The position numbers and the translations under genes were made by a program. Source: a virus. Taken from it: a stretch of 53,491 bases of DNA. The first letter of the stretch is position 1. Each line of letters starts with the position of its first letter. Under the pieces are notes generated by a model. The model worked only from the letters and a program-made list of their open reading frames with translations, ran no database searches and was not told where the DNA came from. Shown here piece by piece: positions 16,864 through 53,491 of this stretch. The stretch lies in IMG/VR virus record IMGVR_UViG_3300048999_000117, positions 1 through 53,491 of that record, one strand, 5' to 3'.

Positions 16864-17516
16864 CGAACACCGAGCTGGCCCTGTACCGCAGCCGACATCT
16901 GCTGTGGGTGACGGCGATCCTCCTGTTCATCGGCGGCGCCGTCGCGGTGTCGTGGCTCCTCGTCGACCGGGCTCAGCTGGCGGACCGACTGGCGCACGAG
17001 GCAGACCTCCGCGGCACCGCGGTGTCGACGCTGGCAGGGGACGTGCGGGCCCTACGTCAGCAGGTCCAGGCCGAAGGTGCGACACCGGTGGCGCCGGACC
17101 CGACGAAGGCGGTAGAGGATCTCCCGAAGCGCGCCGAAGTACCGGTACCCATCCCGGGCCCGCAGGGTGCCGCAGGAAGTCCGGGACCGTCAGGGTCGCC
17201 GGGGTCGCCGGGCGCGAGCGGCAGCCCGGGAACGGCAGGTTCACCAGGAACGATCGGCCCGTCTGGGCCGGTCGGTCCTACGGGACCGCAGGGCGAACAA
17301 GGGCCCGCCGGCCCCGCAGGCCAGGACGGGAAAGACGGCCAGGACGGGACGGACGGGCAGGCCTGTCCGGACGGCTACAGTCTGCAAGCCCCATCGTGGG
17401 ACGCGGACGCCCTGGTGTGCCGGAAGGACGGCGCGCCGCAACCGAGCGACTCACCCTCTCCGTCGCCGTCCACAGCGACGTTGGGACTGGATCCGCAGCG
17501 CCGCGTATACGTATGA
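16860..17516 (+). CDS. Collagen-like membrane protein
   Basis: A 218-residue protein starting at ATG 16860. Residues 14-37 are a membrane segment (LLWVTAILLFIGGAVAVSWL), followed by a coiled coil to about residue 67. From about residue 97 to 170 every third residue is glycine (GPQ, GAA, GSP, GPS...), a collagen-like triple-helix repeat, later turning to GKDGQDGTDG. Two Cys flank the C-terminal domain. Collagen repeats are best known in phage tail fibres; a membrane-anchored copy at the end of the lysis operon is less usual. Confidence 0.8.
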   Translation: MTNTELALYRSRHLLWVTAILLFIGGAVAVSWLLVDRAQLADRLAHEADLRGTAVSTLAGDVRALRQQVQAEGATPVAPDPTKAVEDLPKRAEVPVPIPGPQGAAGSPGPSGSPGSPGASGSPGTAGSPGTIGPSGPVGPTGPQGEQGPAGPAGQDGKDGQDGTDGQACPDGYSLQAPSWDADALVCRKDGAPQPSDSPSPSPSTATLGLDPQRRVYV

Positions 17517-17661
17517 CGCATGCCCCTGCTGCTCGCCTCCGCGGCGAGCGGTGGGGGCGCTTCGTCATGTCTGCAGGCCGCGCGCTGAACCCCGGCGTTG
17601 TCAGACCTCGCGGCTACGCTGGCGTCATCCAATTCAGCTACCTGCGGGAAGCTGCTGGCCG

Positions 17662-17692
17662 CGCCCCGCCGACATGGAACCCCGGCGGGGCG
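17662..17692. terminator. Hairpin ending the late operon
   Basis: Ten-bp arms (CGCCCCGCCG paired with CGGCGGGGCG) around an 11-nt loop. It lies between the late genes and the convergent small gene at 17701-17895, so it probably stops both transcripts. The 17517-17661 interval before it holds no gene I can support. Confidence 0.6.
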
Positions 17693-17700
17693 TGCTGCTG

Positions 17701-17895
17701 TCACGCCGCTTCGGTCAACTCGCTGCGCCAGCGCTCGACCGCGACCGCAACGGCCCACTCGGCAACGAGATCCGCGTACCGCCGGCGCGACTCCCCGTAC
17801 AACCATCCGCCCGCCGCCTCGACCAGCGCGCGGATCTCCTCGTTCACCACGGCAGCAGACCGCGCGGAACCAGCCGTGTTGGGGTTGGGGGACAT
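17701..17895 (-). CDS. Small helical protein of unknown role
   Basis: A 64-residue protein on the minus strand, beginning MSPNPNTAGSARSAAVVNEE. The rest is helical with many Arg, Glu and Trp (LYGESRRRYADLVAEWAVAVAVERW). It shares an upstream region with the divergent DUF397 gene, and a 12-bp palindrome lies between. No Shine-Dalgarno site is visible, so the message may be leaderless. Function not recognised. Confidence 0.55.
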   Translation of the reverse strand: MSPNPNTAGSARSAAVVNEEIRALVEAAGGWLYGESRRRYADLVAEWAVAVAVERWRSELTEAA

Positions 17896-17915
17896 GCGAC
17901 AAGCCTATGGCCCGG

Positions 17916-17933
17916 CACTGACAGTGCGCACTG
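17916..17933. promoter_or_regulatory. Overlapping palindromes between divergent genes
   Basis: CAGTGCGCACTG (17922-17933) is a perfect palindrome, and CACTGACAGTG (17916-17926) overlaps it. They sit 20-40 bases upstream of the minus-strand gene at 17895 and before the DUF397 gene, as expected for an operator. Confidence 0.45.
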
Positions 17934-18005
17934 GCGCAGGGGCAACGGCCGTGGTCCTCTACGACCCGAGTTGCTGAAACCCATCGAGGGAGTGAGGGGA
18001 ACACT

Positions 18006-18200
18006 GTGCCGGATATCCAAGACGGGCAACTGACCTGGAAGACGTCCACGTACACCGACACCGGGGCGTGCGTCGAATGGGCGCGGCCCACGGAAGGCGT
18101 CCTGGTCCGGGACACCAAGTGCCGCAAGCGGGCACGGATGGCGGTCGCACGACCCGCGTGGACGGGCTTCGTCGACTGGGCAAAGACCGCCACCGTCTGA
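18006..18200 (+). CDS. DUF397-domain protein
   Basis: A 64-residue protein with the DUF397 pattern: an N-terminal LTWKTSTYTDTGACVEWAR, a central VLVRDTKCRKRARMAV and a C-terminal WTGFVDWAKTA. In Streptomyces, DUF397 proteins are usually encoded beside XRE/DUF5753 regulators and act with them. Here such a regulator is at 19088-19927, with one gene between. The start is GTG 18006, with a GAGGGGAAC site. Role: probable partner or antagonist of the regulator, by analogy. Confidence 0.85.
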   Translation: MPDIQDGQLTWKTSTYTDTGACVEWARPTEGVLVRDTKCRKRARMAVARPAWTGFVDWAKTATV

Positions 18201-18210
18201 GCACCCAAAG

Positions 18211-18243
18211 GCCCCTGCCCGGTCCTCGTGACCTGGCAGGGGC
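18211..18243. terminator. Terminator-like hairpin after DUF397 gene
   Basis: GCCCCTGCC pairs exactly with GGCAGGGGC across a 15-nt loop, directly after the DUF397 stop and followed by CACCTTCGTTTG. The next gene would then need its own promoter in the roughly 100 bases that follow. Confidence 0.6.
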
Positions 18244-18343
18244 ACCTTCGTTTGTACGCCCTCGTCCCAGCAGGGGCGCCCTGTTGCGGACGACGGCGAG
18301 ACGGCTACGGTGCCGCAGACCACCAACCAGGAGGGGAACACCA

Positions 18344-19072
18344 ATGACCCGACGCCTGTGGAAAGTTGGCACCAACAGCGGTAACGACGGATGCCCGACC
18401 CTGTACGAGATCCCCGGCACGGACCAGTACGTCGTCCAGGGCGACAGCGTCACTGACGCCGACGAACTCGGCCAGTTGGACAACCTCACCACGGAGGAGG
18501 GCGCCGTCACCGTCCCGCGCGCGCTGCTCGCAAACTTCGGCCCCAAGGAGCCCGTGCACGTGCCCCAGTTCATCAGCTTCGACGAGTTCGGCGGCATGTT
18601 CGCCAAGCTCAAGCACTCCGCCTGGAGGCTGGAGACCCGCCGCCGCTACGCCTCCGACGAGGAGACCGACACCTACCGCCAGTTCGTCGCGGGCGAACCC
18701 GTGACCTGGGATCTCGACGACCCGTGGTGCACCGGCCGCCGCGAACAGTCCGCGCTGGGCAAGCGGTTCGAGCGGGTCCGTATCCTCGACGAGCCGCCTA
18801 CGGAGGGGCAGCGCTACCTCCTCGACAACGCCCGCCGCAACACCGCAGTCGGCGAGGACATCCGTGTTCTGACCCGCAGCAAGGCGACCGAACTCGGCCT
18901 GCCCGACGAGGACTTCTGGCTCTTCGACTCCCGCGTTGTCGCCCTGCTCCACCACAACGACGCCGACGAGATGACCGGCGTCGAACTCATCACCAACCCA
19001 GTGGACGTCCTCCGCTACGCGCAGGCCCGCGAGGCTGCATGGCACCACGCCGTGCCCTACGACCAGGCCTGA
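18344..19072 (+). CDS. DUF6879-like protein
   Basis: A 242-residue protein preceded by GAGGGGAAC. The core FISFDEFGGMFAKLKHSAWRLETRRRYASDEE, followed by WDLDDPWC, a GKRFERVRILDEPPTEGQRYLL segment and DEDFWLFDSRVVALL, matches the DUF6879 pattern as I recall it. In Streptomyces it is found next to XRE/DUF5753 and DUF397 genes, and that order is kept here. Its biochemical role is unknown. It may be the effector of a regulatory or toxin-like set, which is an inference. Confidence 0.75.
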   Translation: MTRRLWKVGTNSGNDGCPTLYEIPGTDQYVVQGDSVTDADELGQLDNLTTEEGAVTVPRALLANFGPKEPVHVPQFISFDEFGGMFAKLKHSAWRLETRRRYASDEETDTYRQFVAGEPVTWDLDDPWCTGRREQSALGKRFERVRILDEPPTEGQRYLLDNARRNTAVGEDIRVLTRSKATELGLPDEDFWLFDSRVVALLHHNDADEMTGVELITNPVDVLRYAQAREAAWHHAVPYDQA

Positions 19073-19087
19073 CGGTAACTTGCCCAT

Positions 19088-19927
19088 GTGACCACGGACT
19101 TCCAGCAGGCCCGCGAGGCCCTCGGCCGCCGTCTGCGCGAGCTGAGGGCCGGCCAGACACAGCGGGAACTGGCGGCCGTGCTGGGGTGGCCGCAGGCCAA
19201 GGTCTCGAAGCTGGAGACCGGACGCCAGACGGCCACCCCCGACGACCTCACCTCGTGGGCCCAGGCCGCCGGCCACCCTCAGACCGCCGAGGAACTGCTG
19301 TCCAGGCTTCAGGGCCTGGAGACCCACACGCGTTCGTGGCGGCGCCAGCTGCGTGCCGGCCACCGCCCCGTGCAAGACGTCCTCACCATCGAGTACGAGC
19401 AGACTGCGGAGTTCCGCGCGTGGCAGGGCGCCCTCGTCGTCGGCATCCTGCAAACCCCGGACTACGCCCGGAACATCTTCGCCCGGTACGCCGAGCTCCA
19501 GCAGTCACCCCGGGACATCGAGGACGCTGTTCGGGCCCGCGTCCGTCGGCAGGAGCTGCTCTACCAGCCCGGCCGGACCTTTCATCTCCTCATGTGGGAA
19601 GCCGCTCTTCACGCTGGTGTAGCGCCGCCCGACGTGCTCGCCGCGCAGCTGGACCGGCTGGCCAGCGTCATCGGGCTCGACACTGTGCGGCTCGGCATCA
19701 TCCCGTTCGGCGCGCAGTTCGCCATCCCTCCCGCTAACGGCTTCTGGCTGTACGACGACCGGTTGGCGATCGTCGAGGAGTGGCATGCCGAGCTGTGGCT
19801 GAACGACGCGGACACCGTCTCCCTGTACCGGCGCGTGTGGGACACCCTGGACAAGTCGGCGGTCTACGGGACCCAGGCACGGCGTCTGATCGCGCGCGCC
19901 CGGGCACAGGTCTCCGACCTCGCGTGA
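19088..19927 (+). CDS. XRE regulator with DUF5753 domain
   Basis: A 279-residue protein with two parts. Residues 8-75 are an XRE helix-turn-helix (LRELRAGQTQRELAAVLGW, then QAKVSKLETGRQTATPDDL). Residues 95-275 are the DUF5753 domain with its typical opening IEYEQTAEFRAWQGALVVGI, then QTPDYARNIF and the RRQELLY and IPFGAQ segments. The family includes Streptomyces developmental and antibiotic regulators that pair with DUF397 proteins. It has the look of a host-derived gene carried by the phage, possibly altering the lysogen. Confidence 0.9.
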   Translation: MTTDFQQAREALGRRLRELRAGQTQRELAAVLGWPQAKVSKLETGRQTATPDDLTSWAQAAGHPQTAEELLSRLQGLETHTRSWRRQLRAGHRPVQDVLTIEYEQTAEFRAWQGALVVGILQTPDYARNIFARYAELQQSPRDIEDAVRARVRRQELLYQPGRTFHLLMWEAALHAGVAPPDVLAAQLDRLASVIGLDTVRLGIIPFGAQFAIPPANGFWLYDDRLAIVEEWHAELWLNDADTVSLYRRVWDTLDKSAVYGTQARRLIARARAQVSDLA

Positions 19928-19935
19928 GAATCACA

Positions 19936-19990
19936 GCGAATCGCACGTAACAGCAGGCGAATATTCGAGACTCAGGCACCGTGCCGATTC
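19936..19990. promoter_or_regulatory. Repeated GCGAAT sites before small operon
   Basis: The 78-base gap between the XRE/DUF5753 gene and the next operon holds CGAATATTCG (a perfect palindrome, 19958-19967) flanked by GCGAAT near 19936 and ATTCGC near 19985. The AT-rich motif stands out from its surroundings and could be the operator and promoter for 20006-20885. Confidence 0.45.
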
Positions 19991-20005
19991 GCGAACCTCC
20001 CTAAC

Positions 20006-20482
20006 GTGCTGGTCATGGCCCACACGAGGATGCGGTTCGCCGAGGTGTACGAGGCCGGGGACGCGTGGCTCGCCGACTGCTCCGCGCACCCGACCCTCGT
20101 CCGCATGACGTGGAACAAGGAAGTCCTCGCCCCGATAGCCGTCGGCACGCACTGGCTGGCCGCCGAGACAGCGCTCATGCCCACGATGCAGGCCCTCAAC
20201 CGGATCCGGGGCGAACACCGTGGGCCGGTTCTCGCCGACGTCGAGACGGACACGGCCTGGTGGCTCGTCCCAACCGGCTCCGCAGCGGAACTGGCCGATC
20301 TTCGCCAAGTCACCGTCCAGCGCACGGGATGGACGCTGAGCTGCCCGCCCACTGGCTGGAGCCTGGAGGGCCGCCTGTGGCTGAACCGCCCGGACGGGTC
20401 TGGCCGGCTGACCGATCCCGCCCTACTCGCTGCCGCGCTCGGGCCGGGCGGGTACCGACTCCCTACGGAGGCCGCTGGATGA
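20006..20482 (+). CDS. Streptomyces-type protein of unknown role
   Basis: A 158-residue protein starting at GTG 20006 or ATG 20015. It has many Trp (AWLADCSAHP, HWLAAETAL, DTAWWLVPTGSAAELADL, WSLEGRLWLNRP). I do not recognise it with certainty. It resembles proteins encoded near XRE/DUF5753 regulators on Streptomyces chromosomes. It heads a three-gene operon joined by ATGA and GTGA overlaps. Confidence 0.65.
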   Translation: MLVMAHTRMRFAEVYEAGDAWLADCSAHPTLVRMTWNKEVLAPIAVGTHWLAAETALMPTMQALNRIRGEHRGPVLADVETDTAWWLVPTGSAAELADLRQVTVQRTGWTLSCPPTGWSLEGRLWLNRPDGSGRLTDPALLAAALGPGGYRLPTEAAG

Positions 20483-20679
20483 GAACGGACATGGACCCTC
20501 CCATCACACTCGGGCTCCCGCTCGACGAGCCCGAGCCACCGCCGGACTGCGACGTGTGCGAGGCGCTTGCCCGGCGACGGGCCGAGGCCACGCAGGCCGG
20601 TGACCTCTCGCGCGTCTCGGACTGCAACGTCGAAATCCGCAACCACCACCTCGCGCGCCCCACCAAGGGGAAGCCGTGA
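20479..20679 (+). CDS. Small CxxC protein
   Basis: A 66-residue protein coupled to the previous gene as ATGA. It has CDVCEALARRRAEATQAGDLSR and a second Cys in SDCNVEIRNHH. The Cys/His pattern suggests metal binding. Small proteins of this kind occur in host-type Streptomyces operons beside XRE regulators. Confidence 0.65.
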   Translation: MRTDMDPPITLGLPLDEPEPPPDCDVCEALARRRAEATQAGDLSRVSDCNVEIRNHHLARPTKGKP

Positions 20680-20885
20680 GCACGACCGGATGGCAATGGC
20701 GCGACGGGAGCGGCGGGGCCGGCCACATGCAGCGCGTCGCCACCAACGCCGCGTTCACCCAGACCCAGACGGCCTACCGCGCGTACATCGACCACAGCCG
20801 CGACTGCGCCACCTGCGCCGTGGACAGCGGCCAGTGCGCGACGGCCGAACAGTTCTGGGAGGCGTACCAAGCCGTTGTCACCTAG
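20676..20885 (+). CDS. Small Cys-rich protein
   Basis: A 69-residue protein starting at GTG 20676 (GTGA overlap). The C-terminal DHSRDCATCAVDSGQCATAEQFWEAY is a short Cys cluster of the C-x2-C-x6-C type. It closes the three-gene operon. No function is assigned. Confidence 0.65.
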   Translation: MSTTGWQWRDGSGGAGHMQRVATNAAFTQTQTAYRAYIDHSRDCATCAVDSGQCATAEQFWEAYQAVVT

Positions 20886-20929
20886 GCCTCGTGACCAGCG
20901 CCCGCCGATCGCGCCGGTCACGGGATAGT

Positions 20930-20965
20930 GCGGCCGTCCCTGCATCCCCCGTCAGGGGCGGCCGC
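20930..20965. terminator. Bidirectional terminator hairpin
   Basis: GCGGCCGTCCCTG pairs with CAGGGGCGGCCGC with one mismatch, between the plus-strand small operon and the stop of the minus-strand XRE gene. Convergent genes share it. Confidence 0.6.
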
Positions 20966-21202
20966 TCACTTGACCAACTCGGCGAGGGGTACGCCGATGG
21001 CGTCGGCGATCCGGATCAGCGTGTCGAGGAGCGGCGAGGAATGCCCCTGTTCGATCCGGCTGTATGTGGCGACGTCGATCCCGGACAGTCCGCATACGTC
21101 GGGCTGCGTCATGTTGTGCTGCTCGCGCACACGGCGGATCTGTTCTCCCACCTGGCGGCGGCGGGCGAGGACCCGTTCGTCGGGTGGAGTGGGGCGGGAC
21201 AC
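20966..21202 (-). CDS. Small XRE-family regulator
   Basis: A 78-residue protein that is almost entirely one helix-turn-helix domain: VGEQIRRVREQHNMTQPDVCGLSG, then VATYSRIEQGHSSPLLDTLIRIADAIG. It ends LAELVK. Such minimal proteins act as dimeric repressors. A perfect inverted repeat lies 34-51 bases upstream of its start, suggesting it represses itself. Confidence 0.9.
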   Translation of the reverse strand: MSRPTPPDERVLARRRQVGEQIRRVREQHNMTQPDVCGLSGIDVATYSRIEQGHSSPLLDTLIRIADAIGVPLAELVK

Positions 21203-21235
21203 CCGTCCACGCTGACGACCACATGATCAAATGTG

Positions 21236-21253
21236 ATTAGGGTCAACCCTAAT
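21236..21253. promoter_or_regulatory. Operator of the small XRE regulator
   Basis: ATTAGGGT and ACCCTAAT form a perfect inverted repeat with a CA spacer. It is AT-rich in an otherwise GC-rich genome and lies just upstream of the regulator that starts at 21202. Symmetry and position fit an XRE dimer site. Confidence 0.65.
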
Positions 21254-21348
21254 TTGTGTGATCTTGAAGGCTGAGGGGAACCCGATCAGAATCGGCTCCC
21301 CCACCTACGGCCCTTCCTGTTCAGCCCCCAGGCAGAGGGAAGGTGCCG

Positions 21349-21380
21349 CGGCTCCCCCGGTCCCCAGACCGGGGGAGCCG
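21349..21380. terminator. Very stable 14-bp hairpin
   Basis: CGGCTCCCCCGGTC and its exact complement flank a four-base CCCA loop. It follows the minus-strand gene at 21393-21911 in its direction of transcription and so is its likely terminator. The 21254-21348 stretch before it holds no gene I can support. Confidence 0.7.
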
Positions 21381-21392
21381 TCACATGTGGCC

Positions 21393-21911
21393 CTAAACGG
21401 CCAGCAGGATCGCCGGCGGAACCCGGAGCGGGGTCGGTGAGAGAGCAATGCCGGGCCACGTCTTGTGCTCGTACCAGGCCTGAAGCCACAGCCCGTCACC
21501 GGCGATACGTTCCAGCATCCCGTTCATTTCGTTGCGCAGCGCACCGGTGCAGTAGCCGGAGCGAATGTTCCACACGCACACCCCGTCCTCCTCGGTGGGG
21601 AAGACGGTCCGGTCGCGCGGCATTTCGAGTGCCGGAACGATCTCCCATCGTGATTCGGCGATACCGAGACCCTCGATGGGCTGCTGCATGCGGCCTTCGT
21701 CGGTCCAGCGCTGTCGCCACAGGCCGTCACCGACCTGGTGACGGGTCAACCAGTTGAATTCCCGCACGAGCTGCCTGCGCGCGTGCAGGCGGTGGAGGAA
21801 GATGTCGGCCGTTGCACCATCGCGATCTTCGACGTGGACGAGACGACCCGAAGGAATCTGGCTGGATTCCCCCAGGTGGTACACGGCCGATGGGTGCTGC
21901 TCATTTGGCAT
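21393..21911 (-). CDS. Unknown protein of the lysogeny region
   Basis: A 172-residue protein starting at ATG 21911, which has a GGGGGCGAT site; a longer in-frame start at 22028 lacks one. It begins MPNEQHPSAVYHLGESSQ and is rich in Trp and Arg (EFNWLTRHQVGDGLWRQRW, AGDGLWLQAWYEHKTW). The repeated GDGLW-x-Q element suggests two related motifs. Function not recognised. It lies downstream of a regulator on the same strand and may be expressed in the lysogen. Confidence 0.6.
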   Translation of the reverse strand: MPNEQHPSAVYHLGESSQIPSGRLVHVEDRDGATADIFLHRLHARRQLVREFNWLTRHQVGDGLWRQRWTDEGRMQQPIEGLGIAESRWEIVPALEMPRDRTVFPTEEDGVCVWNIRSGYCTGALRNEMNGMLERIAGDGLWLQAWYEHKTWPGIALSPTPLRVPPAILLAV

Positions 21912-22103
21912 ATCGCCCCCTGTGTCCCGTGCTGCTCCCGCCAAAATGCGTGGCAGCGGCAGCACGGATCCGTCATCTCGCGCCCCCAGGCGGATGACCA
22001 TCATGCACCGGGCGATACTTTCAGCCAATAGGTTACGTACAGCGCGTAATCACCCTTCGCCAACTCCCTGCCGAATAATGGAAGTTGTGGCGAAAAAAGT
22101 TCG

Positions 22104-22508
22104 TCAGTCGGTTTGCGCCTTGCGCCTGGACTCCATCAGCCTCAGGACTTTCTCCTGGTCGTCGGCATCCATCTCGCTGAACCCGATCACGAGGGCCCGC
22201 ATCTTTCCGTCGGCTGTCCATACGGTGTCGATGCCAAGGAACTGCGAACCGGCCGCCTCTTGGACCATGCCCAGGGGGAGCTGCAGGCCGGCCGCCAGAG
22301 CTCGCAGTTGGGGGAACTCCGGGGCCTTGATCCGTCGCCCCTGTCGTAGGTTGTCGAGAGTGCCGCGGCTCCAGAGCGGGCCCTGCGCGGGGCCCTCTGG
22401 ATCGATGCAGGCCGCCGCGAGTGTGCGGGCCCCGTACTCCAGTTCTTCCATGCGTGCGCGCACGAGGTCGGACAGGTGGGTGCGTGGTGTCTCGCTGCCA
22501 GCCGCCAT
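22104..22508 (-). CDS. Helix-turn-helix regulator, possible immunity function
   Basis: A 134-residue protein. ATG 22508 is favoured by an AAGGATGAGG site; ATG 22517 is an alternative. The first 75 residues (HLSDLVRARMEELEYGARTLAAACID, then WSRGTLDNLRQGRRIKAPEFPQLRAL) form an XRE-like domain. The C-terminus is acidic with VIGFSEMDADDQEKVLRLME. Proteins of this form are common Streptomyces regulators. Position beside the integrase suggests a role in lysogeny control. Confidence 0.78.
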   Translation of the reverse strand: MAAGSETPRTHLSDLVRARMEELEYGARTLAAACIDPEGPAQGPLWSRGTLDNLRQGRRIKAPEFPQLRALAAGLQLPLGMVQEAAGSQFLGIDTVWTADGKMRALVIGFSEMDADDQEKVLRLMESRRKAQTD

Positions 22509-22690
22509 TGTCCTCATCCTTCGATCCCAGTGGGCCGCCTAGATCGAGGCGTGCCGTGCACAGTGTCCAGGTTCTTGGCCAGTCCGCACCAGCCTGTGCC
22601 CGGAGGTCATCCTGCTCGCGGTCAGCGGCAGGCCGGAGTGCGCTATGCACTCAAGGTGGGAAACGAATGGGAAATGATCAAGCTCAGTAG

Positions 22691-22730
22691 ACTCTATTCG
22701 TCTCTAATAATCTCTAGCTTTCCCTAGTTT
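22691..22730. promoter_or_regulatory. Four 10-bp phased CTCTA repeats
   Basis: Four consecutive 10-base units, ACTCTATTCG, TCTCTAATAA, TCTCTAGCTT and TCCCTAGTTT, share the core CTCTA or CCCTA at exact 10-base steps. The segment includes AATCTCTAG (22709-22717), which is also found three times at 25233-25318. It could be repressor operators or integrase arm sites. The rest of the 22509-22841 interval shows no gene I can support. Confidence 0.6.
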
Positions 22731-22841
22731 CGCCCTTGGACTGCTCCGCCGCTCACGATCTCTGCCATCGACCCGCGATTGCGCCAGTCGAAGGACGATG
22801 AGCGGCGGAGGCCAGTCAACTACTGCCTGACCTGCTGTTTT

Positions 22842-22955
22842 TCACAGCGCTTGGGCGGCCGGCTTCACCATGCCGCGCACCGTGCGGGACTTCACGAAGT
22901 CGCCCATCGCGGTCATGTCCCACTCGCCGGAGAACTGCTTGACCAGCTTCGCCAT
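22842..22955 (-). CDS. Thirty-seven-codon frame next to integrase
   Basis: Begins at ATG 22955, two bases after the integrase stop, and ends at a TGA at 22842-22844. The product starts MAKLVKQFSGEWDMTAMG and ends in a basic, ordered tail (VRGMVKPAAQAL). Codon use is like a conserved gene. The frame is open upstream to 22974, so it could be the 3' end of a host gene carried at attP and used to restore it after integration. Otherwise it is a small coupled gene. I do not recognise the protein. Confidence 0.45.
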   Translation of the reverse strand: MAKLVKQFSGEWDMTAMGDFVKSRTVRGMVKPAAQAL

Positions 22956-22957
22956 GT

Positions 22958-24298
22958 TCAGGCTGGTACACGATCACCTGCGCTGAGCTGGGGAGTCTCT
23001 ACGCCCGGTTGATCAACTGGGAGAGGACTGGGAAACGGCGGTATCCAGAGACCGCCCGCAGCCTGATGGAAGGTGTCCCACCGCTCCTGCTGCGACTCAA
23101 TGATATCCCTCTCCATCTTGATGGTGAGGTTGCTGTACAGGCCCCTGACGCCCGCGATCTCGTGGCCCATCCGCGTCTCGACGGCGACCTCGGAGTGCCC
23201 GTCCTCGTCGAGGCACTCCTTCATCCAGTGCCGGAGCCGGTAGATGGGCGTCGCCTCGAACTCCTTCACCGCGGGGATGGCCGGACGCAGGAAGTCCTTG
23301 CGGGCCTCGCGTGCCTCACCGCCGTCACGCGTCGGCCACCAGTAGTCCCGGTCGAACCGTGCGCTCAGCAGCGGGCCCCCGTTCATGGCGGGGAACGTCC
23401 ACGGTGCTGTGTGGGAGGACGCGAGCGCGGTGTGCATCCCGGTCAGGAACGGCGCCATGACGAGGCTCCGGTGCGACTCGTACTTCGGCGCGGTGAGGGT
23501 CGGCTTCCCGCCCACCCACTGGTGCTGGAACTCCACTCGCGTCGCCGGCATGTCCGCGTACCGCTCCAGCGACTCGGCCCGCTGCTGTGAGTCCGGGTCG
23601 GAGGCCGGCCAGAGCGGTGCGGCGTAGACCTTCTGCTGGCCGTACATCTCGCCGGGCCGTGTCCCTTGGAACGCCGCGTGCCAGATGTACGTCCACCCGG
23701 CGAAACCCCACACCGTGTAGGCGTTGACCGCCAGTTGGTACACCGGGCCCATGGCCAGGGGGCGCTTCTTCTTGACGGTCTTCTTCACGTACTTGCCGCG
23801 ACGCGGGGTCGGCGGCGGCAGAGGGGTGTCGGTCCGGTACTTGTACCGGGTCACCGCGTCCGCCATCAGCATGGCGAACACCATGAGGATGTCGTCGACA
23901 TAGGTGCGCGACAGCTCCTTCCTCTCGACCTTCTGATTCAGCGAGTTCTTCCAGGCGAGGTACTCGGGCGTCGTGATATCGCCGACGCGCCTTCTGCCCC
24001 ACTGCTTGTTGATCTGCGCTTTGATCATGGACCGGTACGTCTTGACGGATTCGAGCCTCAGATCCTGGTCCGGTAGCCAGATCGGCAGCGCATAGTCCTT
24101 CATCAGGATGTCGCCGCGGCTCTTGGGAACGTGCTTGTCGTGACGAACCTCGTATTCACGGTCCAGGCCGAAGTCGTAGGCGGAGTCGTAGTCGTTGAAG
24201 CCGGACTCGCTCTCGTACTTCTTACTGCCGCTGTCGAGGTATTCCCCGGCCCACCACTTCACGCGGAACTTGTTTCCGCGTTGCTCGACATAGGGCAT
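22958..24298 (-). CDS. int: Tyrosine site-specific integrase
   Basis: A 446-residue recombinase that would integrate the phage at attB. The N-terminal part (MPYVEQRGNKFRVKW, arm-binding style) and a core-binding domain (residues 60-150) precede the catalytic domain. Active-site residues: Arg214 in FQGTRPGE, Lys272 in TAPKYESHRSL, Arg356 in YRLRH, His379 in RMGHE and the nucleophile Tyr388 in GLYSN. The first His of the HxxR box is replaced by Tyr353, a tolerated variant. It has an AGGGGG site before the ATG. Confidence 0.93.
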   Translation of the reverse strand: MPYVEQRGNKFRVKWWAGEYLDSGSKKYESESGFNDYDSAYDFGLDREYEVRHDKHVPKSRGDILMKDYALPIWLPDQDLRLESVKTYRSMIKAQINKQWGRRRVGDITTPEYLAWKNSLNQKVERKELSRTYVDDILMVFAMLMADAVTRYKYRTDTPLPPPTPRRGKYVKKTVKKKRPLAMGPVYQLAVNAYTVWGFAGWTYIWHAAFQGTRPGEMYGQQKVYAAPLWPASDPDSQQRAESLERYADMPATRVEFQHQWVGGKPTLTAPKYESHRSLVMAPFLTGMHTALASSHTAPWTFPAMNGGPLLSARFDRDYWWPTRDGGEAREARKDFLRPAIPAVKEFEATPIYRLRHWMKECLDEDGHSEVAVETRMGHEIAGVRGLYSNLTIKMERDIIESQQERWDTFHQAAGGLWIPPFPSPLPVDQPGVETPQLSAGDRVPA

Positions 24299-24375
24299 GC
24301 GTCATCCCCCTGGGTGAGAATGCGAATTGAATGGCTGTGCTGACAGGCGTCCTGTCTTTGGGTGTTGAGCTGATC

Positions 24376-24573
24376 TCAGCCTGCTCGGCCGACCGGACAT
24401 CCACCGCACGCTCTGCAGTTGACGCCTTCGCCGTGCATGAGCCTGCGGACGAGAGCCTGAGTCTTCGGGTCGGAGGCCGCTGCCGACGGAAGGACGCAGA
24501 CGACCCGGCCGTCGATCTTCAACGCTTGGCCTATAAAGGCGGGCTCTCGATCGTAGGTAATCACCGTCGCCAC
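24376..24573 (-). CDS. Small protein upstream of integrase
   Basis: A 65-residue protein starting at GTG 24573. It begins MATVITYDREPAFIGQALKI and carries CRACGGC near its end, a likely metal site. It lies 77 bases upstream of the integrase gene on the same strand and could be co-transcribed with it. Function not recognised. Confidence 0.6.
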   Translation of the reverse strand: MATVITYDREPAFIGQALKIDGRVVCVLPSAAASDPKTQALVRRLMHGEGVNCRACGGCPVGRAG

Positions 24574-24652
24574 ACTGCGCCTCGCTCACCCCTCGAAGAA
24601 CCCCCAGGTGAACGTCAGCGTTGCACGTGGGATGCGGCTCCGTGAGGGTAGA

Positions 24653-24670
24653 TGGCCAAAAACTTGGCCA
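24653..24670. promoter_or_regulatory. TGGCCAA inverted repeat after repressor gene
   Basis: TGGCCAA and TTGGCCA flank AAAC, a perfect 7-bp stem 54 bases beyond the repressor stop. It may be a terminator for the repressor or a regulatory site for the minus-strand integrase operon. The surrounding 24574-24723 gap shows no gene. Confidence 0.4.
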
Positions 24671-24723
24671 CTACAGGTCACGATCGGGTAACGACAAAAA
24701 GGTTGTACGCCGATCGCGTTCGA

Positions 24724-25203
24724 TCAGTCTGAATCGCTAAGTAGTCCGTGCTTGCGCATGACTTCCAGGGCGTACTCGGCTACGCGTCTGCTCATTTCCT
24801 GGGCTTCTCCGAGAGGCACTTGCGGGCTGACCGCTGTCGCCACATCGAGGAACCCCTCTCTCATCTCCTCGCTCACGTCCGCCGCGCGTACCCGGCTGCG
24901 CTGGATCTGTGCGCCGGAGATCAGCTCGGTGCCGTCGGTCAGCGTGATGGAGTCCGCGCCGGCCAGGACGCTCGTGCAGGAGCCGGGCTGCATCCCGAAG
25001 CCTGCTTCGAGCTTGGCGTAACTCGTGGGGCCGACCGACTTGCCCTTCTCGACGTTCGAGTAAGTCGTGACCGAGAGACTGCACAGCTTGGCCGCGTCGC
25101 GCTTGTCCGTGATGCCGAGCGCGGTGCGCCGCTGAAGCACGAGTGTCCCGAGTTTCAGCAGGTGACGGCTGGTGTCGTCGCTGGTTGGCGCCATGCCGCC
25201 CAT
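24724..25203 (-). CDS. Phage repressor (XRE-type)
   Basis: A 159-residue protein on the minus strand, divergent from the Cro-like gene. Residues 15-70 form a helix-turn-helix (LKLGTLVLQRRTALGITDKRDAAK, then SVTTYSNVEKGKSVGPTSYAKLEAGFGM). The C-terminal half is acidic and helical and may dimerise. No LexA-type Ser/Lys peptidase is seen, so induction is not by simple self-cleavage. ATG 25194 is an alternative start. Position and divergence make it the best candidate for the main immunity repressor. Confidence 0.82.
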   Translation of the reverse strand: MGGMAPTSDDTSRHLLKLGTLVLQRRTALGITDKRDAAKLCSLSVTTYSNVEKGKSVGPTSYAKLEAGFGMQPGSCTSVLAGADSITLTDGTELISGAQIQRSRVRAADVSEEMREGFLDVATAVSPQVPLGEAQEMSRRVAEYALEVMRKHGLLSDSD

Positions 25204-25215
25204 GATGACAGCTAC

Positions 25216-25370
25216 CTCTAGCTACCGCCAGAAATCTCTAGGCCTGTGGCCAGTTCTTGGCGTCACCTTGGCGGACTGTGGTGCACGCGGCAGCGAGAAC
25301 TAGAGATTTCTAGAGATTACTCGCGAGTATCGCTAGAAGTCTCCATCGCGAGTCACTAGCTTTCTCCATA
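25216..25370. promoter_or_regulatory. Divergent switch region with CTAGAGATT operators
   Basis: The 166-base gap between repressor and Cro-like genes has three exact copies of a 9-mer: AATCTCTAG (25233-25241) and CTAGAGATT (25300-25308 and 25310-25318, the last two in tandem at 10-base spacing). Degenerate copies lie at about 25217 (CTCTAG), 25332 (CTAGAAGT) and 25356 (CTAGCTTTC, also at 22714-22722). This is the layout of a lambda-like switch with several sites covering two promoters. Confidence 0.8.
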
Positions 25371-25666
25371 TGCACAGAACCCCAACCACCTTCCAGGTGG
25401 ACGGGGCGGCCATCCGCACACGCCGCAAGGAACTCGGTCTGTCCCTCGCCGAGTGCGCCGCCCGAGCCCGAATCAGCCGGCCGTACCTCAGCCAGCTCGA
25501 AAACGGCGACCGGCGCGACATGCGGCCCCCCACCTACAAGCGCCTGAACTCCGCCCTCAAGAGCCAGCGATCAAAGCGGCTGCTCCTCGCCCCTACCGAG
25601 GACGCGGCACGAGAGGAAACAGATGCCCGCCACGAAGGCGCCCCCCGCTCGGACCAGGACGGATGA
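25370..25666 (+). CDS. Cro-like helix-turn-helix protein
   Basis: A 98-residue protein whose first 65 residues are an XRE domain: IRTRRKELGLSLAECAARAR, then ISRPYLSQLENGDRRDMRP and PTYKRLNSAL. The end is charged and disordered. It is the first gene transcribed rightward from the switch region and so is the likely antagonist of the repressor. The end overlaps the next gene by 44 bases. Confidence 0.85.
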   Translation: MHRTPTTFQVDGAAIRTRRKELGLSLAECAARARISRPYLSQLENGDRRDMRPPTYKRLNSALKSQRSKRLLLAPTEDAAREETDARHEGAPRSDQDG

Positions 25667-25949
25667 GCCCGTCCTGCAGAACTTCCACAACCTGAAGCAG
25701 GCCACTGTCCGGCTCGGCCTCGCCACCGAAGACCCTGCCGACACCCGAGGTCAGGACTGGCTCCGCAGGGGTGTGAACCGTCCCGAGGACGGCAGCAAGG
25801 GACCCCGGTTCCCCTGCCACCGCATGGCCAGTCAGCTCATGTTCAGTGACTCGGACCTCGCCGTGATCGCGGAGATGCAGCGCAACAAGGTCGACGGCCG
25901 GTCGAAGCCCCGTCGAAGCCGCCGCACCCGCAGGTCGTCGAACGCCTGA
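25623..25949 (+). CDS. Putative excisionase or DNA-binding protein
   Basis: A 108-residue protein with a central winged-helix-like stretch: FHNLKQATVRLGLATEDP, then GQDWLRRGVNR, CHRMASQLMFSDSDLAVIAEM. The tail is Arg-rich. The pattern (helix, wing with FP/CHR, helix) is typical of small actinophage excisionase or early DNA-binding proteins. As the second gene of the early operon it may direct prophage excision. Confidence 0.65.
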   Translation: MPATKAPPARTRTDEPVLQNFHNLKQATVRLGLATEDPADTRGQDWLRRGVNRPEDGSKGPRFPCHRMASQLMFSDSDLAVIAEMQRNKVDGRSKPRRSRRTRRSSNA

Positions 25950-29333: not shown

Positions 29334-29969
29334 GTGCCCGATCAACCCTTCACCGATGAGGACTTGAAGGCCGCCGCCGCGCTCATGCACTACGCGCTCA
29401 CCATCGAGCCGAACCCTGCCGACGCCAGCGCCGGACTGTCCGACAACCCTCGATGGCTCCTCGTTGAGCCCGGCAGCGAGCACGACGAGCAGCTGCGTGA
29501 GTCCGTCGTCGAACTCGTCTCCGGCGCCGCCGACATCTCGCGATGGGCCGTTGACCTCGGCGCGGACGGGCTGGAGCCCGAGGAGCACCAGTTCACCCTC
29601 AACGCCGGGCCCAAGCCCATCATCCGCGTGCACTTCGCGTTCGCCCCCGAGATGTCCGACGACTCCCGTGGCGCCTTCGTGCAGGGTCTCGGCGAGGCCG
29701 CCGCGCGCGAGATGCGCCTCGCCCTCGAAGAGGCGGCGAGCCCCACAATCTCCAGCGATGTCGCCGCACACGTCCTCTGGCACGAGGCGAAGGGCGGCTG
29801 GCCCCCCAGCACTTTCGCCTCGAAGCTGCTGCACCTGTGGACGTCGGCCGACACCGGCAACGCCGAGCACCTTGCCAACGCCTTCCCCGAGTACGCCGCC
29901 GCCATCGGCCTGATGCGGAGCGGCCAGCAGGGCATCGAGCAGCTGCTCGCCATCGCCGACGGCTCCTGA
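29334..29969 (+). CDS. Early protein sharing a domain with the next gene
   Basis: A 211-residue protein starting at GTG 29334 just after the hairpin. The first 140 residues are alpha/beta with acidic helices. The last 70 residues (AAHVLWHEAKGGWPPSTFASKLL, then NAEHLANAFPEYAAAIGLM and GIEQLLAIA) are clearly similar to the 83-residue protein at 30091. Function unknown. The upstream C-runs leave its true start uncertain. Confidence 0.65.
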   Translation: MPDQPFTDEDLKAAAALMHYALTIEPNPADASAGLSDNPRWLLVEPGSEHDEQLRESVVELVSGAADISRWAVDLGADGLEPEEHQFTLNAGPKPIIRVHFAFAPEMSDDSRGAFVQGLGEAAAREMRLALEEAASPTISSDVAAHVLWHEAKGGWPPSTFASKLLHLWTSADTGNAEHLANAFPEYAAAIGLMRSGQQGIEQLLAIADGS

Positions 29970-53356: not shown

Positions 53357-53491
53357 CCACCCGAACGGCACGCGGGCGCGACCCCAACCCATCACCCCAT
53401 GGAGGGAGCGAGCCATGCTCGCCTACCTGCGCAAGCAGATGACAGCCGCGCTCGAAGCCCGGGCCGCGCTGAAGACCGACCTCGACGCCGT
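53357..53491. repeat. Terminal repeat of the window start
   Basis: Positions 53357-53482 are identical to 1-126. After that, single-base differences appear: T at 127 becomes C at 53483, G132 becomes C, and A134 becomes G. The genome therefore closes on itself with a unit of 53,356 bases. Confidence 0.95.
53415..53491 (+). CDS. Partial second copy of the capsid gene start
   Basis: The first 25 codons of the capsid gene, cut by the end of the window. The last codons differ from the first copy (the LDG of the first copy reads LDA here). It is the start of the capsid gene seen again through the terminal repeat and is not an extra gene. Confidence 0.9.
   Translation, partial: MLAYLRKQMTAALEARAALKTDLDA

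Follow-up and report, generated by a model that had tools for sequence, protein, structure and literature searches.

The direct repeats bound by Apl of coliphage 186 follow one another at a spacing of one helical turn and are located at attP and between the early promoters (PMC7498355). RdfS of ICEMlSymR7A is a winged-HTH recombination directionality factor (RDF). Its targets are attP, immediately next to an arm site, and the region of its own promoter, and no consensus motif was found for it (PMC11963761). In the cases of Apl and of Cox from the P2-like phages, one factor serves both excision and the switch, the factor is encoded by the first early gene, and the promoters are arranged face to face. 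For the excisionases (Xis) of phages lambda and Pukovnik, sites in tandem, one turn apart, are located in the attP arm that passes into attR. These Xis sites are not known to be shared with the immunity switch. In the lambdoid phages, operators lie between the divergent repressor and Cro genes, and these CI/Cro operators are palindromic dimer sites.

The locus described here is part of a virus record of 53,491 nucleotides (IMG/VR IMGVR_UViG_3300048999_000117), and the whole stretch is called the window. Direct repeats one turn apart are found both at attP and at the early-promoter region, as with Apl and Cox, and we propose that here too one factor would serve excision and the switch. One small protein, probably an excisionase, is likely to help control both the lysis-lysogeny switch and recombination with the host chromosome. 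However, a separate Cro-like gene comes first in the window, and the candidate factor indicated by covariation comes second. The repressor-like and Cro-like genes stand back to back, as known from the gene layout, and the candidate, a protein of 108 residues, is assigned to another sequence family than Apl and Cox through its phrog_1840/HTH_17 relatives. Because a separate Cro-like gene precedes the candidate factor and the switch is divergent, we do not group this locus with the Apl/Cox systems. The candidate resembles RdfS in its predicted winged HTH, in the putative attP site beside an arm and in the putative sites at its own promoter, and its model shows a weak structural match to RdfS. 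RdfS belongs to an ICE and not to a phage switch, and it lacks a consensus motif, whereas clear 10-bp units recur here. Tandem sites in the arm that becomes attR are shared with lambda and Pukovnik Xis, and divergent repressor and Cro-like genes with sites between them are shared with the lambdoid phages. In a literature search with sparse coverage of subscription journals, no paper was found on the sharing of sites between switch and attachment site in Streptomyces phages.

The window and its repeated unit

The two ends of the record overlap (1–135 versus 53357–53491, 132 of 135 bases identical), the major capsid gene is located at the left end, and the portal and protease genes are located at the right end. 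Hence, the phage genome is very probably a circle of about 53.36 kb, which the record covers essentially in full, opened between the protease and capsid genes and with attP left uncut. The closest relatives, by integrase and by repressor, occur in Streptomyces, and the repressor family is present in 40 of 393 Streptomyces genomes. A direct search of viral contigs detected no relatives of the 159-aa repressor; relatives were recovered using an alignment profile and whole Streptomyces genomes. Scanning the viral contigs with a pattern gave mainly unrelated AT-rich contigs and one genuine relative (L050). The phage collection contained no match to the integrase, repressor or excisionase. Between the tail/lysis genes and attP, a run of regulator-type genes is present (17167–22517; HTH with DUF5753, other HTH and a 137-aa HTH), which looks like host-type cargo.

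The initial annotation had reported four exact places of CTAGAGATT and a related CTAGCTTTC at 22714 and 25356. The search of both strands confirmed all of them: CTAGAGATT is located at 22709–22717 (−), 25233–25241 (−), 25300–25308 (+) and 25310–25318 (+), and CTAGCTTTC is present at both positions. No fifth exact copy exists in the record, and thus the 9-mer is not frequent outside the region. The single further place with one mismatch is at 29747, against a chance expectation of 1.64 matches at one mismatch or fewer. The 9-mer sits inside a larger unit, in which CTAG-like words follow each other at an exact spacing of 10 bp (Table 1). The spacers between these words repeat directly (0.54) without self-complementarity (0.27). 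The recurring unit is thus 10 bp long, repeats directly and is not a palindrome, and palindromic operators were dropped from consideration. In contrast to the lambdoid CI/Cro operators, dyad symmetry is absent, and the same units also occur at attP.

Table 1. Features of the attachment site and of the switch region in the window.
Feature	Position	Strand	Basis or remark
Distal integrase arm-type repeats of attP (TGATCATTTCCCATTCGTTTCCCA)	22657..22680	−	Same element at distal end of integrated relatives
attP array, 10-bp direct repeats CTAGGGAAAG CTAGAGATTA TTAGAGACGA ATAGAGTCTA	22684..22727	−	Proposed excisionase sites; includes the 22709 copy
Probable att core region	22861..22952 (about)	−	Matches core repeat of S. 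rimosus prophage
Integrase, 446 aa	22958..24298	−	Weak SAM-like domain match
Int-side arm-type repeats (TTTCCCAGTCCTCTCCCA), within 3' end of int	23018..23035	−	
Conserved 65-aa protein between repressor and int	24376..24573	−	
159-aa repressor-like HTH protein	24724..25203	−	HTH_3 match
Repressor-side switch array CTAGAGATTT CTGGCGGTAG CTAGAGGTAG CTG	25209..25241	−	
Cro-side switch array CTAGAGATTT CTAGAGATTA CTCGCGAGTA	25300..25329	+	
Further CTAG-type sites just upstream of Cro-like gene (CTAGAAGTCTCCAT, CTAGCTTTCTCC)	25333..25367	+	
98-aa Cro-like HTH_3 protein, first early gene	25370..25666	+	
108-aa excisionase-like winged-HTH protein, second early gene, proposed array binder	25623..25949	+	Relatives' family matches, model, covariation

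The attachment site

The copy at 22709 had been described as a far site beyond the integrase. Judged from the arm repeats and the core, this far site is the phage attachment site, attP. The integrase, presumably of the tyrosine type, is 77% identical to that of an integrated S. rimosus prophage. A TCTCCCA-like pair of arm repeats is present at the 3' end of int in nearly all these elements, and a second arm pair, preceded by TGATCAT, is present at the other prophage end in many of them. In 12 prophages the att cores were located: the int side and the distal end share exact direct repeats, which range in length from 16 bp to above 60 bp. The att assignments of G392, G356 and G099 are based on arm repeats without a confirmed core. 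At the distal prophage end the order is always core, array and distal arms. The window has the same arrangement: its array is flanked by the att core on one side and the distal integrase arms on the other, and consists of direct repeats in tandem with a spacing of about one helical turn.

In the integrated Streptomyces relatives the array is found in attR, at the prophage end opposite the switch (about 51 kb from the switch in G178, 38 kb in G011 and 31 kb in G189). The initial annotation had suggested DNA looping between the switch and the far site. Since the far array belongs to the side of the att core that passes into attR, integration moves it tens of kb away from the switch, and looping in the lysogen is unlikely.

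The 10-bp period is also observed across the relatives. In 19 non-redundant att regions the identity at lag 10 is 0.452, compared with 0.279 (sd 0.015) in random sets, and no signal is detected at lags 9 and 11. The corresponding lag-10 value of the switch regions is 0.371. Several elements use att words other than CTAG, such as CCAGcatctcGCAGtacctcGCAG in G284 and the GGAAACTCGC repeats in G099.

Arrays of the CTAGcatttcCTAG type, accompanied by arm repeats, were also observed immediately downstream of uppP; Streptomyces genomes with this arrangement number more than 30 (L165, L172 and many of L164–L213). Over 60 kb in each of G097 and G368, no int-side arms were found with the uppP-linked arrays. 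Thus, these arrays may be remnants, or may be served by another integrase.

Covariation of the arrays and the candidate binder

The covariation analysis covers 16 elements. In five extra elements, attR sites were located in two (G390 and G254) and not found in three, so the analysis stayed with the 16. The att array matches the switch of its own element better than the switches of the others. The best 16-bp match is 13.56 versus 12.02 (p = 2e-5), and the best 24-bp match is 17.75 versus 15.73 (p = 1e-5). The difference has the same sign at widths of 12 bp (p = 0.003) and 20 bp (p = 0.0003), computed with the first 12 elements. As the att and switch sequences change together across the 16 elements, the shared motif family would be explained most simply by one regulator acting at both places. 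This part of the initial annotation is supported, but not the regulators it pointed to (159-aa repressor or 98-aa Cro-like protein): variation of the att array goes with the 108-aa excisionase-like protein. Elements with similar att arrays tend to have similar second early genes (Spearman 0.61). When the other proteins are controlled for, the partial correlation is 0.53 (p = 0.001, jackknife 0.41–0.60), on the understanding that the correlations are taken among related sequences and partial Mantel values can be inflated. The corresponding values for the repressor, the integrase and Cro are −0.07, 0.11 and 0.13, the last not being significant. Nor does the att array keep pace with the integrase: the integrases of G392 and G005 are 75–77% identical to that of the window, yet the att units of these two elements differ from the window's.

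In the switch, the Cro-side array shows partial correlations of 0.41 with the second early gene, −0.06 with Cro and 0.09 with the repressor, and the middle of the intergenic region tracks no protein. The repressor-side array tracks the repressor, Cro and the excisionase alike. This suggests shared or overlapping binding, and this array may be a shared operator.

According to these comparisons, the arrays are probably sites of an RDF (excisionase), and the 108-aa protein is the most likely candidate. The Cro-like protein was initially favoured by analogy with Apl and Cox, and the candidate binder was moved to the second gene because of the covariation. It is unlikely that the Cro-like HTH_3 protein is the dual-purpose factor at the switch and attP and that the 108-aa protein has another role. 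The Cro-like gene is the first of the early operon, which is the genetic position of Apl and Cox, and its similarity correlates with that of att at 0.37 before control and, when only elements with a second gene of one and the same family are considered, at a partial value of 0.33. With the second gene controlled, however, the values for Cro over all elements and for the Cro-side array fall to those given above. Moreover, G142 pairs a window-like att array and second gene with a G005-like Cro and repressor.

Two proteins of similar preference, the repressor and/or Cro at the switch and the excisionase at attP, are a quite unlikely alternative. In that case the likeness of the sites would come from a common origin or from a shared preference for CTAG. 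The behaviour of the repressor-side sites is in accord with such a division, and so is G142, in which the window-like att array is poorly matched by its own switch. On the other hand, the match between own att and own switch holds for units without CTAG as well, for example in G284 and G099, and the excisionase is the only protein that the Cro-side array tracks.

It is very improbable that the neighbouring 137-aa HTH gene (22104–22517) uses the 22709 copy as its operator and that this copy is unrelated to the phage switch. The copy lies about 190 bp upstream of this gene, but no CTAG arrays are present upstream of 30 homologues, and autoregulation of the gene was dropped for this reason; arrays at att also occur in elements with unrelated neighbours or without this gene. 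AT content is higher in the intergenic regions than in the genome, but a chance origin or a simple AT-rich repeat is practically negligible as an explanation: none of 200 order-2 Markov copies of the window contains exact CTAGAGATT, 4-unit arrays with at least 13/16 matches number three in the window against a mean of 0.01 in these copies, and the periodicity and covariation hold across elements.

The assignment of the 108-aa protein as the probable RDF was compared with family and structure data. Relatives of the second early gene match the phrog_1840 excisionase and HTH_17, and 10 of the 12 members of its family match an excisionase family; the window's own protein gave no direct family match. 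Judged by these relatives, the phage encodes the small basic (winged) HTH protein of an excisionase family that an RDF system calls for. The model of the protein has the winged-helix order at modest confidence (pLDDT 68), and shows weak structural matches to MerR/RacA-type domains and to RdfS. A profile search of solved structures with the excisionase family found only designed proteins.

The arrays, the attL/attR anatomy, the att–switch covariation and the covariation of att with the excisionase-like gene are seen in the sequence. What the 108-aa protein would do at these sites is inferred, from binding and bending of the DNA to control of promoters and excision, as follows. Monomers would bind head to tail on the tandem 10-bp direct repeats, one per helical turn. 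At the attP/attR array, between the core and the distal integrase arms, the protein would bend the DNA and aid prophage excision by the integrase. At the switch arrays, between the divergent repressor and Cro-like genes, the same protein would modulate, probably repress, their promoters. Excision would thus be coupled to the lysis-lysogeny decision.

A broader reading is offered tentatively, with somewhat less than even confidence. Among Streptomyces prophages of a large family that has hardly been studied, a stand-alone excisionase may be a third regulator of the repressor/Cro switch. The DNA address it recognises would be duplicated at attP and the switch and would diversify between phages; specificity for the switch and for excision would evolve jointly, and to a large extent separately from the integrase.

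On the RDF reading given above, the coupling of excision and switch, known for Apl/Cox of P2-like phages, would extend to Streptomyces phages with a back-to-back switch and their own Cro-like gene. The co-diversified arrays are a natural data set for deriving and testing the recognition rules of winged-HTH excisionases. The att anatomy of this integrase family (core, arms and excisionase array) would aid the design of reversible Streptomyces integration vectors.

Switch region in the relatives

In the window, the arrays of the switch are flanked by the divergent repressor-like and Cro-like genes. The gene order is kept in the relatives from S. aureocirculatus, S. stelliscabiei and S. rimosus, in which the Cro-like and excisionase-like genes follow each other in one direction, and the repressor, the 65-aa protein and the integrase in the other. 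CTAG-type sites are present in the same repressor–Cro interval of these relatives. The 65-aa protein occurs in all 18 elements compared and contains a C-x2-C-x2-C motif; the search for a family match gave none.

CTAG arrays (four units, 10 bp, at least 13/16 matches) were scanned in 13 Streptomyces prophage regions and the window, about 0.85 Mb in total. The ten 4-unit array clusters detected are located at the switch (eight) and at attachment sites (two). In the three-unit scan the 10-bp period stands out with 10 arrays, seven of them at the switch, and the other periods give none or few.

The repressor-side array of G142 is a clear 10-bp triple of the CAGGAAC type. On the S. rimosus contig G005:C40 (L139–L140), two repressors of this family are located about 22 kb apart in opposite orientation, and the second has its own CTAGAAACGCCTAG site.
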